Source: Vibrio sp. HB236076
Lineage (GTDB): Bacteria; Pseudomonadota; Gammaproteobacteria; Enterobacterales; Vibrionaceae
Length of the DNA: 64,000 nucleotides
Assembly (NCBI RefSeq): GCF_040957575.1
Contig: NZ_CP162601.1
Coordinates: 2,418,001-2,482,000, forward strand
Direction: 5' to 3'
The notes under the pieces were generated by a model that searched no databases, had not been told where the DNA came from, and worked only from the letters and a program-made list of their open reading frames with translations. The position numbers and the translations under genes were made by a program. Shown one piece after another: positions 7,876 through 24,104 of this stretch; position 1 is the stretch's first letter; each line of letters opens with the position of its first letter.

Positions 7876-9231
7876 ATGAGATCAGCCTTGTCCACTACCC
7901 AAACCAATATTTTCACCGTCTCGCGTCTAAATGCTGAGGTGCGTTTACTACTCGAAAATGAAATGGGAATCGTCTGGTTACTTGGCGAAATGTCTAACTT
8001 ATCCACTCCGGTCTCTGGCCATTGGTATTTCACTCTCAAAGACAGCCGAGCACAAGTCAAATGTGCCATGTTCCGTGGCAATAACCGCCGTGTCAGCTTT
8101 AAACCACAAAACGGACAACAAGTGCTGGTTAAAGCGCGTTTGTCTTTATACGAACCGCGTGGTGACTATCAGCTGATTATCGAGAGTATGCAGCCCGAGG
8201 GCGATGGTCGACGTCAGCAAGAATTTGACGCATTAAAACTCAAACTTGCCTCAGAAGGCCTTTTTGCCCAGCATCTTAAAACGCCCTTGCCAGAGCACCC
8301 CAAGTGCGTTGGGGTCATTACTTCAAAAACCGGCGCCGCGTTATACGATATTTTAGATGTACTCAAACGTCGTGATCCCACGCTGCCCGTGGTGGTGTAT
8401 CCTACGTTAGTACAAGGCGAAGGCGCGGCGATCAGTATTGCACAAGCTATTGGCGCGGCCAATGATCGCAACGAATGCGATGTATTGATTGTCGGTCGCG
8501 GTGGAGGGTCACTGGAAGATCTGTGGTGTTTTAACCAAGAAATTGTTGCGAGAACCATTGTCGCAAGCCAAATTCCCGTGATCAGCGCCGTTGGTCACGA
8601 AATCGACGTCACGATCGCAGACTTTGTTGCCGATATGCGAGCGCCCACCCCATCGGCAGCCGCCGAACTGGTCAGTCGCGATCAAAGTCATAAAGCAATG
8701 CAAATTGTCGAAAAGACGCGTTATTTACAGCACGCCTTTGAACGCTACCTCAGCCGTCGCCAATACCATTTGAGCCAGCAACGGCATCGATTGGAAAAGC
8801 ACCATCCGCAGCATCGACTTGCCACACAAAGTCAACAGCTCGACGATCTCGACAATCGCTTAAACAAAGCGCTGATCCGCCAACTCGAACAACAACAATA
8901 TCGACTACAGCGCCTAGAGACCAAATTGATGCATTTGAGCCCTCTTAACTTTATTCAGCGTCAACAAGAGAAAGTGGCTCGACTCGAGCAGCGTTTGCAT
9001 CAAGCGATGACGACCTACCTTAGACACCAAAGCCACCGCTTAGCTCTCCAAGCAGAAAAGCTCGATGCTGTCAGCCCATTGGCGACGTTAAAACGCGGCT
9101 ATTCGATCACGCAAAGTGAAGATGGCAAGGTGATTACCACTCAAGAGCAACTAAAAGCCGGTGACGTGATCCTCACTCAGCTTTCTGACGGCCAAATCTA
9201 CTCCGAAGTTAAGCGCATGAGCAAGGACTGA
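7876..9231 (+). CDS. xseA: Exodeoxyribonuclease VII large subunit
   Basis: Catalytic large subunit of exonuclease VII, which degrades [14 protein letters not shown] DNA in both directions together with XseB (not in this window). It has the N-terminal OB-fold ([32 protein letters not shown]) and the catalytic core with [27 protein letters not shown] and [19 protein letters not shown] long Gln/Arg-rich coiled coil (about 270-400) precedes the C-terminal GYSITQ segment. The start is uncertain: ATG at 7876 is used here, a TTG at 7888 with a weak GAGA upstream gives a start closer to the family's, and an ATG at 7834 would be longer. It is divergent from guaB, as in many gamma-proteobacteria, and its 3' end overlaps the convergent small zinc-ribbon gene by 23 bp. 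Confidence 0.93.
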
Positions 9232-10304: not shown

Positions 10305-11789
10305 TTATTTACGGTTTTTAACCGCGGACATCATACGTTTGCGTTTTCGTTCTTGAGAAAGGGTCAACTTATTGGTTTTACCTTCAAAAGGGTTGTCGCT
10401 ATTTTGGAAAACCACGCGAATGGGTGTACCGACTATCTCCAGCGATTTGCGGTAGTAATTCATCAAATAACGTTTATAAGAGTCCGGTAACTCATTGACC
10501 ATGTTACCGTGAATGACCACAATCGGTGGGTTATAACCACCGGCGTGCGCGTATTTTAATTTAACACGTCGACCACGTACCATTGGCGGCTGGTGATCTT
10601 CTGTCGCCATTTTCATAATACGGGTTAATACCGACGTACTGACACGCGTCGTTGCAGAGCGGTATGCTTCTTCTACCGATTCAAACAAGTGGCCAACGCC
10701 GGTACCGTGCAAGGCGGAAATAAAGTGCAAGCGCGCAAAATCAACAAACCCCAAACGGCGATCCAATTCTTTTTTCACATGATCTTTTACATCGGTATCT
10801 AATCCGTCCCATTTATTGACGGCTAAGACAACAGATCGACCCGCATTCAATGCAAAGCCCAATAAGCTTAGATCTTGATCAGAAATATTTTCTCTCGCAT
10901 CGATCACGACCAATACAACGTTGGCATCTTCGATGGCTTGCAGTGTTTTTACCACCGAAAACTTCTCAACCGTTTCATCAATACGGCCACGACGTCGAAC
11001 ACCAGCGGTATCGATCAACACGTACTCACGGCCATTGCGCTCCATCGGGATATAAATCGAATCCCGAGTGGTGCCAGGCATATCGTAAACCACGACGCGC
11101 TCTTCACCGAGAATGCGGTTGGTCAATGTGGATTTACCCACATTTGGGCGACCAATAATGGCCAGTTTGATCGGCTGAGCCTGTAAACGAGCGTGAATTT
11201 CTTCCGCTTCCGCTTCACTGTAATCAAAGCTTTCTTCTTCGCTGTCTTCAAGTTCAGACAGATCTTGAATTTCGCCCATTTCATTTTCGATCAAAGACTC
11301 GATAAAAGGATGTAAGGCTCGTTCCAGCAATGCGGTCACACCACGGCCATGTGCCGCAGCAATTTGATACATGTTTTCAACGCCCAACTGCCAAAAATCG
11401 GAACACGCGGCATCGCCATCGACACCATCAATTTTGTTCACCACCAACATGGTCGGTTTTTCGATTTTTCTCAGGTGGGTCGCGATGGCTTCATCGGCAG
11501 GCGTACGCCCGGCGCGACCATCAACAAGAAATAGCACCACATCTGCTTCGTTAATTGCAGACAGTGACTGCTCAGCCATTTTGGTTTCTACCCCGGTCTC
11601 CGTACCATCAATACCACCGGTATCAATGACGATGAAGTCGTGATCACCCAGCTTGGCTTGTCCGTACTTACGGTCGCGCGTCAAACCAGGGAAGTCTGCC
11701 ACCAAAGCGTCACGCGTGCGCGTTAAACGATTGAATAAGGTGGATTTGCCTACGTTGGGACGCCCAACAAGGGCAACAACAGGAACCAT
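10305..11789 (-). CDS. der: Ribosome-assembly GTPase Der (EngA)
   Basis: Double-domain GTPase needed for 50S subunit assembly. Both G domains carry GRPNVGKST (near residues 8 and 213), and NKID/NKWD base-recognition motifs follow in each. An acidic linker separates the domains (about 170-200), and a C-terminal KH-like domain ends in a basic tail ([14 protein letters not shown]). Its 494 residues are typical for gamma-proteobacteria. In E. coli der follows bamB directly. Here a terminator and a 140-bp repeat element lie between bamB and der, so der probably has its own promoter. Confidence 0.97.
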
Positions 11790-11879
11790 AAATAACCTCT
11801 GTAAATAGTAAATGTTTAGCGTGATAGTGAATGCTTATTCCCTTGACATTATTTAGGTTGGCAGTGGCAAACCAAAACG

Positions 11880-12019
11880 ATACCCATTTCACTAAACCAG
11901 TCAAACAAAACCCAACGCCACATCGACTTATGTCGATTAAGGTCGCTTTTGATAACTGAACCTTTACGCATCGAACTGACCTTAAGCGCAAACCAATCAT
12001 TCCCTAGTGAAATGGGTAT
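11880..12019. repeat. 140-bp MITE-like element with 15-bp terminal inverted repeats
   Basis: The ends ATACCCATTTCACTA (11880-11894) and TAGTGAAATGGGTAT (12005-12019) are perfect inverted copies. Inside are a hairpin ATCGAC/GTCGAT (11922-11937) and a second inverted pair TTAAGGTC/GACCTTAA (about 11938-11983). The element fills most of the bamB-der gap. No target-site duplication is evident and no second copy was found in the window, so non-autonomous mobility is inferred from structure only. Confidence 0.6.
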
Positions 12020-19817: not shown

Positions 19818-21098
19818 TTATTCGTTAAGTAAACGCGCCAAAGTCCGAAGACCGACACCTGTCGCTCCAGCGGCCCACTTGTCATTACCTGACTTACGGT
19901 AAGTTGCCGAACAATCGAAGTGTAACCAACCTTGCTGGTAGTCTTCAACAAAATGAGACAGAAATGCAGCGGCAGTACTCGCCCCTGGTACGTAATCGCC
20001 TTGGCTGATATTGGCTAAGTCAGCAAAATGCGATGGCAGCATGTCGCGGTGAGCTTCTGCAACGGGCAAAGGCCACACCCCTTCGTGTTCTGCACTCGCC
20101 GATGCCAAAGCACGCTGGGAAAGCCCCTCATCAAAACTTAGTAACGCGTGATAATCATTGCCAAGCGCTTGCTTCGCCGCGCCGGTTAACGTTGCACAAT
20201 CGATGATCATTTGCGGTTTTTGTTCACACGCATAAATCAATCCATCGGCCAACACCAAACGACCTTCGGCATCCGTATTGAGAATTTCGACCGATTTACC
20301 GTTTTTGTAACGAATGATATCGCCCAGTTTTAACGCTCGGCCAGAGACCATGTTTTCAGCGCAGCAAAGGATCAACTTAACTCGCTTGTTCAAGCCGCGT
20401 AAAATGGCCAACCCCAATCCACCGGTGACTGTCGCTGCGCCCCCCATATCCGCTTTCATCGACAGCATAAAGTTAGACGGCTTTAAACTATATCCCCCTG
20501 AGTCGAACGTAATGCCTTTACCCACCAAACAAGCAAACACCGGCGCGTTCTCATCGCCTGTTGGGTTATAATCAAGTTGCAGCATCGCTGACGTGCGTTC
20601 AGAACCACGGCCAACGGCATAAATGCCTTCCCAACCTTCAGTCAGCAAATCCTTGTCTTTAACAATGCGAATACTCACTGTGCCTTCAGGCGCAAGGGAT
20701 TTAATAAACTCAGAAGCCATGGTCGCCAATTGACGAGGCGCGACTTCTTCCGCGCTTTTATTGATCAGCTCACAGGTAAATTGTGATGTTTTGATCCGCG
20801 CCTCTAATTCAGCTTGGTCGTCGGCACCCAATTCTGGCCATTCCATCTGCGGGGATTGTTTTGGCGTGCGAAAGCCCAAGTAAAAGGCCCAAATGGCTTC
20901 TAGTCCCCAATGCTCACCTTCAAGCTTAACTTGCTTTAATCCTTGAGCATTGAGTTTGCGTGCGGCTTGCTGGATTTTATCAAGGCTTCCAGCAAAGTGA
21001 ATCAAGGTACTTTTTCCTTCAAAAGAAACCAAAGCGCCCGCGCCCCATACCTCTGCGGCGGATTCAAGTGTTAACCTAACTGGCATTTGTGTAGACAT
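19818..21098 (-). CDS. pepB: Peptidase B (M17 leucyl aminopeptidase family)
   Basis: A 426-residue cytosolic aminopeptidase with two metal ions. The catalytic domain shows [14 protein letters not shown], the signature [14 protein letters not shown] and TLTGAAK. The N-terminal domain is short, as in PepB and unlike PepA. An AAGGAG site precedes the ATG. In E. coli and Vibrio pepB is the last gene after iscX; here it follows a 450-bp gap after iscS. Confidence 0.93.
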
Positions 21099-21504
21099 TC
21101 TTACTCCTTGTCTTTTCTTCGCAGGTCATATTCGCGAAGGGATATTGTTCTATTTGTTCATGTCTCGTATGCCATATCTTAGCGTGTCATTCAAACAAAT
21201 AGCTTAACGAAACCCACGGTTCACCACAGACGGCATACGATGGGTATCAACCTCATTGTTATCTCTTGATACTGGAATAGATTGCATTTATCGACACCAG
21301 TTTACTCTTTAATTGAGACAGTTTTGAGAATATCGCTTTGTCGTAACCACCATTCTGCCCCTAAGCCCTGAGTAGCTCAATATTAAAATCATGAAAATGA
21401 CCTTAGGTGCACAAATAGCAAAGGAGAGAGAGTAAGAGGGTTGCTTAACCAAGGAGAAGACAGTTCATGAGTAAAGGAGGAATAAAAGGCAAGGAGAGAA
21501 AAAT
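21099..21504. other. iscS-pepB gap lacking iscU-iscA-hscB-hscA-fdx-iscX
   Basis: In relatives roughly 4 kb with six genes lie here. The gap contains no recognised remnant of IscX, ferredoxin or HscA. It does contain two interleaved 9-bp inverted repeats: CTATTTGTT (21150-21158) with AACAAATAG (21194-21202), and TCGTATGCC (21165-21173) with GGCATACGA (21232-21240). The promoter of pepB must be in this stretch. Confidence 0.6.
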
Positions 21505-21529
21505 CAGGAGCGATATTTACTCGCTCCTG
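21505..21529 (-). terminator. Terminator directly after iscS
   Basis: Perfect 9-bp stem CAGGAGCGA/TCGCTCCTG with a 7-nt loop, followed on the minus strand by ATTTTTCTC. It starts 18 bp after the iscS stop, so iscR-iscS is a closed two-gene transcription unit. Confidence 0.88.
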
Positions 21530-21547
21530 AAAGGTTTAATGACTCGA

Positions 21548-22741
21548 TTATGATACGCTCTCTTGCTGAAACGTTTGCCAGAGCGGAGACATATCCCTTA
21601 AACGCGTCACACACTGGCAAAGGTGTTCGGCCGCAAAATCGACGTCTTCTTGCGTGGTGTATCGGCCAAAAGACAAACGCAATGCGCTGTGAGCCAGTTC
21701 GCGTTCAAGCCCAATCGCTTGAAGCACATAAGAAGGCTCAACACTGGCAGAGGTACAAGCGCTGCCTGACGACACCGCTATGTCTTTGAGTGACATTAAC
21801 AATGACTCGCCATCGACATAGTCAAAAGCCAAATTTAAGTTATTGGCCACGCGTTGCGTGAGATCGCCATTAATGGTCACAAAGGGTAAGTCTTTAATCT
21901 TGTCAAGAAAACGTTCACGTAACGCCATTGCGTGTTGATGATCGCTTTCCATCTCCTCTTTGGCAATTCGGCACGCTTCACCAAAACCCACTATCTGGTG
22001 AGTTGGCAAGGTGCCAGAGCGAAAACCGCGCTCGTGCCCGCCACCATGGATTTGTGCCGCCAAACGGAGGCGAGGCTTGCGGCGTACATAAAGGGCACCA
22101 ATCCCTTTAGGGCCATACATCTTATGCGCAGAAATAGAAATTAGGTCTACCGCCATATTTTGCACGTCGATCGCCAACTTACCCGCCGATTGGGCAGCAT
22201 CAACGTGAAAGAGGATATCGCGCTGACGACATAACTCACCCATCGCGGCGATATCCTGAATGACACCAATTTCGTTATTGACATGCATGATAGAGACCAA
22301 AACCGTATCATCACGCATCGCGGCCTTGAGGGTTTCTATGCCGATTAACCCATTGGAGTCAGGCTTCAGGTACGTGACCTCAAAGCCTTCTTTTTCAAGG
22401 GCTTGGCATGTATCCAGTACGGCCTTATGCTCAGTCAAAGAGGTAATAATATGCTTGCCTTTTTGCTCTGCGTATTGCAAAGCCGCCCCTTTAATCGCCA
22501 GGTTATCGGACTCGGTTGCCCCGGAAGTAAACACGATCTCTCTTGGATCGGCATTAATGAGATCAGCAATCTGCTCTCTCGCCGTATCGACCGCCTCTTC
22601 AGCTTGCCAGCCATAGCGATGTGAACGAGAAGCCGGGTTAGCAAAAATGCCATCCATTGTCATGTATTGAACCATTTTTTCCGCCACACGCGGATCGACA
22701 GGACAAGTCGCCGAATAATCTAAATATACGGGCAGTTTCAT
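21548..22741 (-). CDS. iscS: Cysteine desulfurase IscS, with shortened C-terminus
   Basis: PLP enzyme that takes sulfur from cysteine for Fe-S clusters, tRNA thiolation and cofactors. The 397 residues include the PLP-lysine region [21 protein letters not shown], the active-site loop [10 protein letters not shown] with the persulfide Cys, and [11 protein letters not shown]. The family ends after SPLWxxxxQ with a conserved tail (in E. coli GVDLNSIEWAHH). Here the protein ends [13 protein letters not shown], so the tail, which is known to contact IscU, is missing. The gene is followed by a terminator and not by iscU. I infer that this IscS serves mainly tRNA and cofactor thiolation or works with another scaffold. 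Confidence 0.93.
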
Positions 22742-22790
22742 GCATTACTCCGAAAAAATAAAACTCAGCACGAGATAAAAATTTACAACA

Positions 22791-23288
22791 CTAGCGAACG
22801 TTTACGCCAATAGGGGAAAAGCGCTTTGTGCTTTCACTTGAGCTTTCTGATAGCGACAGGCCTTGTCTATCTGTGATGGCCAGCACCTCATTATCTTTCA
22901 TGAGCGCCCCCAAGGTGATGTTATTCAAAAACTCAGTGATCCGCGAGCTCAGATCGCACCACAAAGTGTGGGTTAAACAACGCACACCCGCTTGGCAGTT
23001 TGCGCTACCTTGGCATCGCGTTGCGTCAACGGATTCGTCGACCGCGGCAATGACCATACCAATTGAAATGCTTTCCGCCTCAGCCCCAAGGCGATAACCG
23101 CCACCCGGCCCACGAATACTCGATACCAATCCAGCTTTGCGCAATTTAGAAAACAATTGCTCTAGATAAGATAAAGAAATCCCTTGTCTTTCTGAAATAT
23201 CTGCCAATGGCACAGGGTGCTGCTGCGAGTGCAACGCCACATCTAACATAGCAGTCACCGCGTATCGGCCCTTAGAAGTCAATTTCAT
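22791..23288 (-). CDS. iscR: Fe-S cluster-sensing regulator IscR
   Basis: A 165-residue Rrf2-family repressor/activator carrying a [2Fe-2S] cluster. It has a winged helix ([21 protein letters not shown]) and the ligands Cys-x5-Cys-x5-Cys-x2-His in [17 protein letters not shown], all conserved. The ATG at 23286-23288 gives [16 protein letters not shown]. It is the first gene of a two-gene operon with iscS (49 bp apart) and has two IscR boxes upstream, so autorepression by the holo form is likely. What loads its cluster is unclear, since the iscU-fdx genes are not here. Confidence 0.96.
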
Positions 23289-23330
23289 AACACAATACCC
23301 ACACAAATTATCATGTTTTGAAGACTCCCA

Positions 23331-23379
23331 TACTTGACTAAATTGGTCAAGTATTTAATTGACTAAAATAGTCAGGTAT
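23331..23379 (-). promoter_or_regulatory. Two tandem type 1 IscR-binding boxes
   Basis: Two 24-bp near-palindromes lie 42-91 bp before the iscR ATG: 23331-23354 (core TTGACCAATTTAGTCAAGTA on the minus strand) and 23356-23379 (core CTGACTATTTTAGTCA). They match the type 1 motif with half sites TGAC and GTCA. The distal box runs into the last codon of trmJ. Such sites bind only the cluster-loaded IscR in E. coli. Confidence 0.85.
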
Positions 23380-24104
23380 TATTTGTCAATGCGCTTTTCA
23401 ATCGTGCGACATACACCTCGCAAAATATTGATCTCTTGCTGATCGGGACGCGCGCGATTAAAAAGACGGCGGAGTTTATTCATCACTTGTCCGGGTTGGT
23501 CGGCCGAAATAAACTCGGTTTTTAACAAAACTTGTTCGAGGTGTTGATAAAAACGCTCTAACTCTTCATGGCGTGCATACTCAGGCACCTCAGGCGTAGG
23601 ATAGTGTGATGCTTGATCGGCTAAATGTGCCATGCGCACTTCGTAACACAAAGTCTGCACTGCCATCGCCAAGTTTAATGAGCTGTATTCTGGGTTCGCC
23701 GGAATGGTAATGTGATAATGACAACATTGTAGCTCTTCATTATTGAGGCCGGTACGCTCGCGACCAAAGACAATCGCGACCTTGTGTTTTTTGCCTTCTT
23801 GAGCGACTTTTTGCCCACATTCATTGGCGGTCAACATCGGCCATTCAAGTGAACGCGAGCGCGCACTTGTCCCCGCGACAAAACTGCAGTCAGCCACCGC
23901 TTCTTGTAAGGTATTAACCACGGTTGCCCCTTGTGCAATATCTGAAGCGCCTGACGCTAACGCAATAGCTTGAGCGTCCACTTCACATTGCGGGTCAACG
24001 AGCACTAAATCCGATAGGCCCATCACCTTCATCGCTCGCGCTGCCGAGCCGACGTTGCCGGAGTGCGATGTGCCAACCAATACAATTTTCACATTGTCTA
24101 ACAT
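23379..24104 (-). CDS. trmJ: tRNA (cytidine/uridine-32-2'-O)-methyltransferase
   Basis: SPOUT-family methyltransferase of 241 residues that modifies position 32 of tRNAs. It has the N-terminal [19 protein letters not shown], the knot motif [15 protein letters not shown] and [10 protein letters not shown]. The ATG at 24102-24104 gives [11 protein letters not shown]; five extra upstream residues are not supported. It lies just upstream of iscR, and its stop codon overlaps an IscR box. Confidence 0.95.

Follow-up and report, generated by a model that had tools for sequence, protein, structure and literature searches.

Missing ISC assembly genes and an altered docking surface on the retained IscS of Vibrio sp. 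HB236076 and related lineages

The isc Locus

The window, by which we mean the whole analyzed stretch of 64,000 nucleotides from Vibrio sp. HB236076 (genome G000), carries on its minus strand the gene order trmJ, iscR, iscS, a 449-bp gap, pepB, ndk, rlmN, a RodZ-like gene, and ispG. The identities of IscS, IscR, PepB, and Ndk are those given by NCBIfam models, and the names trmJ, rlmN, and ispG, like secD, secF, suhB, dnaK, and erpA, are those customary for the families concerned. The genome used for comparison, G112, is Vibrio cincinnatiensis according to the label of an identical database IscS (P0103). The features of the locus are as follows.

19818..21098, minus strand: pepB, bounding the lost genes on the right; it is also the next gene after iscX in G112
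21099..21547, no strand: gap of 449 bp, where G112 carries iscU-iscA-hscB-hscA-fdx-iscX
21504..21530, minus strand: terminator-like hairpin of 10 pairs, 18 bp past the iscS stop codon
21548..21569, minus strand: altered end of iscS; after SPLW come QTFQQESVS and the stop
21548..22741, minus strand: iscS, 397 aa (NCBIfam IscS equivalogs and residue check)
22791..23288, minus strand: iscR, 165 aa, above the TIGR02010 cut-off, with cysteines 92, 98, and 104
23330..23354, plus strand: IscR type-1-like site upstream of iscR, 1 mismatch
23355..23379, plus strand: second IscR type-1-like site, 2 mismatches

A sequence-only reading of this stretch had proposed that the six isc genes are missing between iscS and pepB and that a terminator directly follows iscS. 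Both observations stand: searches with the G112 genes from iscU to iscX revealed no relics beyond chance matches in the 449-bp gap, the absence extends to the whole genome (see below), and the hairpin lies where a terminator was predicted, terminator-like sites numbering 2 in the region against 0.3 expected. No Rfam RNA was found in positions 20900-23600 up to an E value of 0.1. The same reading held that IspG, RlmN, and IscR retain their cluster cysteines, and we indeed see the CPSC...GC motif of IspG and the CxxxCxxC motif of RlmN, both of them the usual cluster motifs of these families, in the translations from the window, alongside the three cysteines of IscR.

The IscR sites were scored with a commonly used type-1 consensus. 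Type-1-like sites are also present upstream of iscR in a second Vibrio genome of interest, G156. Upstream of the suf operon of G000 there is no type-1-like site, and the best match to a type-2 site there has 2 mismatches, a score equalled in 64% of shuffles, for which reason we do not claim it. A type-1-like site with 2 mismatches does occur upstream of sufB in both G156 and its relative G233, and 100 shuffles per region yielded no site with up to 5 mismatches.

Genome-Wide Inventory of ISC, CyaY, and SUF

The G000 genome (3.88 Mb, two contigs, completeness 100) encodes no IscU detectable with the NifU_N model, a search that was positive in 12 of 14 control genomes. The remaining ISC genes were sought with a single query made by joining HscB, HscA, Fdx, IscA, and IscX from G112, which recovered the true genes in all six ISC-bearing genomes of the same search. 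The HscB, Fdx, and IscX parts have no match anywhere in G000; the HscA part retrieves only Hsp70-family proteins at no more than 42% identity, the best of them DnaK-like; and the IscA part matches the A-type carrier encoded in the suf operon and a protein resembling ErpA, leaving no true HscA or IscA. Relocation of iscU-fdx to another site in the genome is rejected, since the genome-wide search is without a match. Further, the only IscS-type or related enzymes at E values up to 0.001 are IscS itself and SufS, so that neither a displaced iscU-fdx nor a second IscS-type enzyme, which the earlier reading had named in combination as grounds for abandoning its claim, is found. We found the bacterial frataxin CyaY to be absent from the genome as well. 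This loss, together with the repeated independent losses and the changes elsewhere on the surface of IscS that docks ISC partners, all described below, goes beyond what had been read from the window.

The earlier prediction that another assembly route must exist is borne out by a single complete sufABCDSE operon (C1:1619047-1624511) on the same replicon as the isc locus. Its SufB, SufS, and SufE were named by NCBIfam, SufB and SufD by SUFBD_core, and SufA and SufC through their resemblance to those of G156; SufE and SufS score under the E. coli-type equivalog cut-offs, and SufS clears the SufS family cut-off. TusA, ThiI, and NfuA are encoded in G000, G156, and G233 alike.

Rarity across Vibrionaceae

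IscU is present in 244 of 247 Vibrionaceae genomes, and the three without it are G000, G156, and G233, each 100% complete. Among further Vibrio genomes, it was found in 79 of the 80 searched, the miss (G311) being 80% complete and split into 350 contigs, and iscU was seen in the fetched loci of the remaining 2 of these 82. SUFBD_core is found in 41 of the 247 genomes (40 above the cut-off), including the three that lack IscU, and IscU co-occurs with it in the other 38; by simple arithmetic that ignores kinship, the chance that three random genomes would all be SUF positive is 0.004. CyaY is present in 219 of 227 Vibrio genomes, with G000, G156, and G233 among the 8 misses. Thus, within Vibrio, these three genomes combine a missing IscU and a missing CyaY with a SUF system. 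The other CyaY misses are G194 (1.0 Mb), G306 (610 contigs), and three genomes of 73 to 80% completeness. As a separate observation, G194, a very small Vibrio genome of 1.0 Mb, retains IscU and has no CyaY match.

In the comparison of C termini that the earlier reading had recommended, an EW..H-like IscS end is found in 79 of 82 sequences from fetched loci (Vibrionaceae plus one Aeromonas and one Shewanella), each of the 79 with iscU in its locus; the 3 with neither are again G000, G156, and G233. Among the fetched loci, 12 contained SecD/SecF without the isc locus, and two at estimated positions in G194 and G247 contained none of the genes.

At Least Two Losses within Vibrio

The locus of G156 and G233 reads iscR-iscS-pepB, with an IscS of 396 aa ending in SPLWQMHKESATI and SPLWQMHKESSII, respectively. 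Their gap retains 32 bases that are 90.6% identical to the stretch 37 to 68 bases past iscX in G112, which shows that the old end of the isc operon now lies behind iscS as the result of a local deletion. G112 itself has the full isc operon, a full IscS tail, and CyaY, and it is absent from the 41 SUF-positive genomes.

A FastTree phylogeny of eight flanking proteins, from which IscS and IscR were left out (70 taxa, 2753 columns), places G156 and G233 next to G112 with a support of 1.0 and G000 elsewhere on a long branch. In a 31-taxon IQ-TREE analysis, forcing G000, G156, and G233 together is rejected by the AU test (P = 4.2e-9), as is forcing these three together with G112 (AU 0.0025). A single ISC loss in Vibrio is accordingly rejected by the flanking proteins. 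The SUF operons also differ: that of G156 and G233, with the G156 genes named by NCBIfam, is built as sufBCDSA-sufT-sufE, unlike the sufABCDSE of G000. In a tree of 28 SufB sequences (28 of 30 loci, two of which lay on SufD), G000 falls among the usual Vibrionaceae SufB proteins, and G156 and G233 stand far outside, beside the distant SufB of G150; among 369 genomes, the SufB closest to that of G156, at 91%, is from G676, which belongs to a different family within the order. Because a common loss is rejected and the SUF operons are built differently, these sequence comparisons indicate that ISC was replaced at least twice within Vibrio.

The IscS stem since the split from G112 measures 0.164 in G156/G233 versus 0.023 in G112, and the stems of the flanking proteins are even (0.066 versus 0.063); this indicates relaxed or changed selection on IscS alone. 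G000, for its part, is an isolated, long-branched Vibrio lineage whose SecD is no more than 83% identical to that of any Vibrio among the matches listed.

The Docking Surfaces of IscS

The IscS of G000 passes two equivalog models (NF010611, 696 over 548 bits; TIGR02006, 676.7 over 643.2 bits) and retains the PLP lysine K206 and the catalytic cysteine C328. Two database proteins, P0001 and P0002, which are 99% and 90% identical to it, are also 397 aa long with a similar end.

The footprints of its partners are available from the portions covered of several published studies. In E. coli, IscU contacts IscS residues 309-316, 347, and 379-391, and deletion of 376-404 abolishes IscU binding; TusA contacts W45, E49, D52, R55, D65, R220, and R237; CyaY and IscX depend on R112 (IscX), R116, R220, R223, R225/E227, R237/M239, and R340; and F89, R116, and R340 matter for ThiI too (PMC2854127). 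Ferredoxin requires R220/R223/R225 and is weakened by R112E/R116E, with K101E/K105E leaving its binding unaffected (PMC3750173), and ACP contacts R112 and R116 (PMC13343975). Human NFS1 wraps ISCU with its final 20 residues, of which frataxin holds the last two (PMC6525205).

Against these footprints, the earlier claim that the IscU-contact tail of G000 IscS is missing stands in part. The tail is absent, but in the structure of E. coli IscS with IscU the mapped contact is made by helix 379-391, which is mostly still there; the missing part is 392-404, which corresponds to the ISCU-wrapping and frataxin-held part of human NFS1. Apart from the tail, the IscU-site residues are mostly retained in G000 and G156. 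The TusA-contact residues of G000 are retained at 7 of 7 sites, L333 at their edge being V, a change that adjoins the catalytic loop. The patch serving CyaY, IscX, and ferredoxin is altered by R112Q, R116K, E227A, and R340Q (E. coli numbering). F89, R116, and R340, the residues relevant to ThiI, are changed in G000 and in a genus of another family, g16 (see below), although G000 encodes ThiI; F89 and R340 are retained in G156 and G233.

We compared 12 short IscS proteins from five lineages, P0001 and P0002 among them, with 165 full-tail IscS proteins (159 distinct). P0003 (395 aa, 79% identity, ending in MYKEGLI, with the docking residues intact in the stretches read), which is taken as a frameshift or a partial sequence, was left out of both groups, as was the Algicola IscS. 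All 12 short proteins keep the 7 TusA and 6 catalytic sites unchanged. R112 and/or R116 is changed in every one of them, versus 0 of 165 controls for R112 and 2 of 165 for R116, and the replacements of R112 vary by lineage (Q, E, L, A, D, and H). At seven patch sites including K101, the changes number 5 in G000, 2 in G156, 7 in G676, 4 in G786, and 2 in G825, against a control mean of 0.024. K101 was put into the patch after inspection of the data, and a cleaner test omits it, with the sites fixed by PMC2854127 and 376-404 left out. In that test, the changed sites of 9 are 4, 2, 6, 3, and 2 in the same lineage order, and the P values for patch enrichment, which are guides only as the sequences are related, are 0.0036 for G000, 0.0054 for G156, 0.00023 for G676, 0.018 for G786, and 0.11 (not significant) for G825. 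A looser conservation threshold gives 0.0064, 0.023, 0.00087, 0.032, and 0.2 in this order, again guides only for related sequences. With a Vibrionaceae-centered set, 6 conserved sites are changed in both Vibrio lineages versus 1.05 expected (P = 1.2e-4, likewise a guide given the relatedness of the sequences).

Beyond Vibrionaceae

G676 and four more genomes of its genus, g16 (five loci in all: L294, L330, L331, L332, and L333), carry the run iscR, iscS, sufB, C, D, S, A, T, E, and ndk, in which the SUF operon occupies the ancestral isc place behind iscRS, and their IscS proteins of 388 to 396 aa have no tail. G786, of a further family of the order (f199; locus L334, IscS at 10790-11950), has iscR, iscS (386 aa), and pepB, and in G825, which is 82% complete, iscR and iscS (392 aa) are followed by 8 kb that contain none of the sought genes. 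The family of G676 (L315) and that of G786 (L321, L328, and L329) include relatives with IscU and a full tail. On this locus evidence, there are probably three more ISC-loss lineages in other families.

In an order-wide search, the 30 best-match loci (the best of 204 genomes with a match among 217) comprise 25 with a full tail and an adjoining IscU and 5, all of the G676 genus, with neither; in the set of named loci, 78 of 80 have both. The L098 locus stops 119 bases past iscS. The locus of Algicola sagamiensis (L094, IscS at 7980-9215) breaks the pattern: its IscS has a full tail, yet the 8 kb downstream contain no iscU, iscA, hscB, hscA, fdx, or suf genes, which points either to an operon relocated elsewhere or to ISC loss that is just beginning.

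Probable Replacement of ISC and the Fate of IscS

We consider it highly probable that ISC was replaced by SUF in these lineages, that IscS was kept as a sulfur donor for TusA and ThiI while its ISC docking surface decays, and that the process is recurrent. SUF would have taken over cluster assembly, and iscU-iscA-hscB-hscA-fdx-iscX and cyaY, absent here and present in relatives, were lost. The gene iscR would have been retained as a regulator or cluster sensor. To judge from E. coli, the delivery of sulfur to TusA, ThiI, and molybdenum cofactor enzymes needs an IscS-type desulfurase, which could account for the retention of iscS; the enzyme would then supply sulfur for tRNA thiolation, thiamine, and the molybdenum cofactor. 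With IscU, CyaY, IscX, and ferredoxin gone, IscS has shed its tail and charged patch, and its catalytic and TusA faces have stayed constrained; this pattern is seen in the residues described above, and the functions are assigned to it provisionally. Relaxed selection suffices for the change of surface, and selection for the release of acidic partners is possible. Several observations count against a tidy version of this account: the IscU-site residues mostly retained apart from the tail in G000 and G156; the changed ThiI residues of G000 and genus g16; L333V in G000; E285, I166, S304, and D346, which lie outside the mapped patch and are altered in three or four of the five lineages; the nonsignificant result for G825; the IscS tree, which rejects neither one origin nor two; and the Algicola locus.

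An alternative, which we regard as unlikely, is that the short IscS still feeds cluster assembly as a sulfur donor to SUF or to a carrier, its changed surface fitting the new partner. In its favor, genus g16 has iscS immediately before sufB in a single run of genes, and Fe-S enzymes of mycobacteria are affected by the lone IscS that accompanies SUF there, according to the part of PMC10848736 covered. Yet each of the two SUF operons encodes a SufS and a SufE of its own, the suf genes of G000 and of G156/G233 are far removed from iscS, and the replacements differ between lineages, which looks like loss and not like a shared new contact.

Far less probable still is a single loss followed by horizontal spread of the short iscS or of the ISC-less state. 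A FastTree phylogeny of IscS alone does group G000 with G156/G233 (0.915), and maximum likelihood does not reject that grouping (AU 0.465). The same maximum-likelihood analysis, however, puts G156/G233 with G112 with a support of 75 for protein and 93 for DNA, neither grouping being rejected, and the IscS of G156 is 85.6% identical to that of G112, its closest relative besides G233, against 75.6% to that of G000. The flanking genes reject monophyly, the SUF operon builds differ, and the stretch from downstream of iscX kept in G156/G233 speaks for a local deletion. For plasmid-borne iscS, we found no near match. An assembly error or missing sequence at 21099-21547 has a negligible probability, given an absence that is genome wide in a two-contig assembly of completeness 100 and includes cyaY at another locus, the same absence in G156 and G233, the same short end in P0001 and P0002, and the terminator-like hairpin right after iscS; the earlier judgment that this is a real evolutionary change is thereby upheld.

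Within the preferred reading, replacement of ISC by SUF, we advance one extension tentatively and with some doubt: gammaproteobacterial ISC loss might be a repeatable path to an IscS dedicated to tRNA and cofactor sulfur, in which, in addition to the IscU tail, the arginine patch that binds the acidic partners CyaY, IscX, ferredoxin, and ACP is removed under selection, freeing ferredoxin and ACP. If so, the short IscS proteins would be natural separation-of-function alleles showing which surface serves which pathway.

Relationship to Known Systems

The locus resembles the iscRSUA-hscBA-fdx-iscX system of E. coli and other Vibrio species in having iscR-iscS between trmJ and pepB and type-1-like sites upstream of iscR, and it is unlike that system in that G000 is without the scaffold, carrier, chaperones, ferredoxin, IscX, CyaY, and the IscS tail. 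Its SUF system has the gene set and order of sufABCDSE, with a SufB that lies within those of Vibrionaceae, but unlike in most SUF-positive Vibrionaceae, no ISC stands beside it. Most bacteria have one Fe-S system, mostly SUF, as stated in the part covered of PMC11559095, and SUF with a lone iscS has already been described in the literature. Thus, in Mycobacterium tuberculosis, the isc operon is reduced to the desulfurase beside a complete SUF (PMC10848736), and the parts of that study covered contain no isc-bearing sister controls and no docking-site erosion. Similarly, some Alteromonadaceae have suf without a complete isc, the two systems alternating between related genomes (PMC12844025), and the portion of that paper covered makes no mention of the IscS tail or docking residues. 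Among the literature matches listed, from a search mainly of open-access journal papers, none describes a Vibrio that has lost ISC or an IscS docking face that has eroded repeatedly.

The closest parallel to the surface changes is the E. coli series of IscS separation-of-function mutants, whose mutations hit the same tail and a number of the residues changed here (PMC2854127, in the portion covered); unlike those designed mutants, the changes here are natural and repeated and occur where the partners are absent from the genomes. IscS is a hub, and the assignment of its surfaces to acceptors came from the designed E. coli mutants. Here evolution has in effect run that mutant experiment again, more than once: several lineages have gone through it, for two of which close ISC-bearing relatives serve as controls, and the result mostly fits the mapped footprints. 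Within one genus, a housekeeping ISC system is seen to be replaceable by SUF, and the fate of the bacterial frataxin is tied to that of IscU. With the short proteins, ready-made IscS variants are at hand for probing what the tail and the arginine patch do, the recently reported contact with ACP included.
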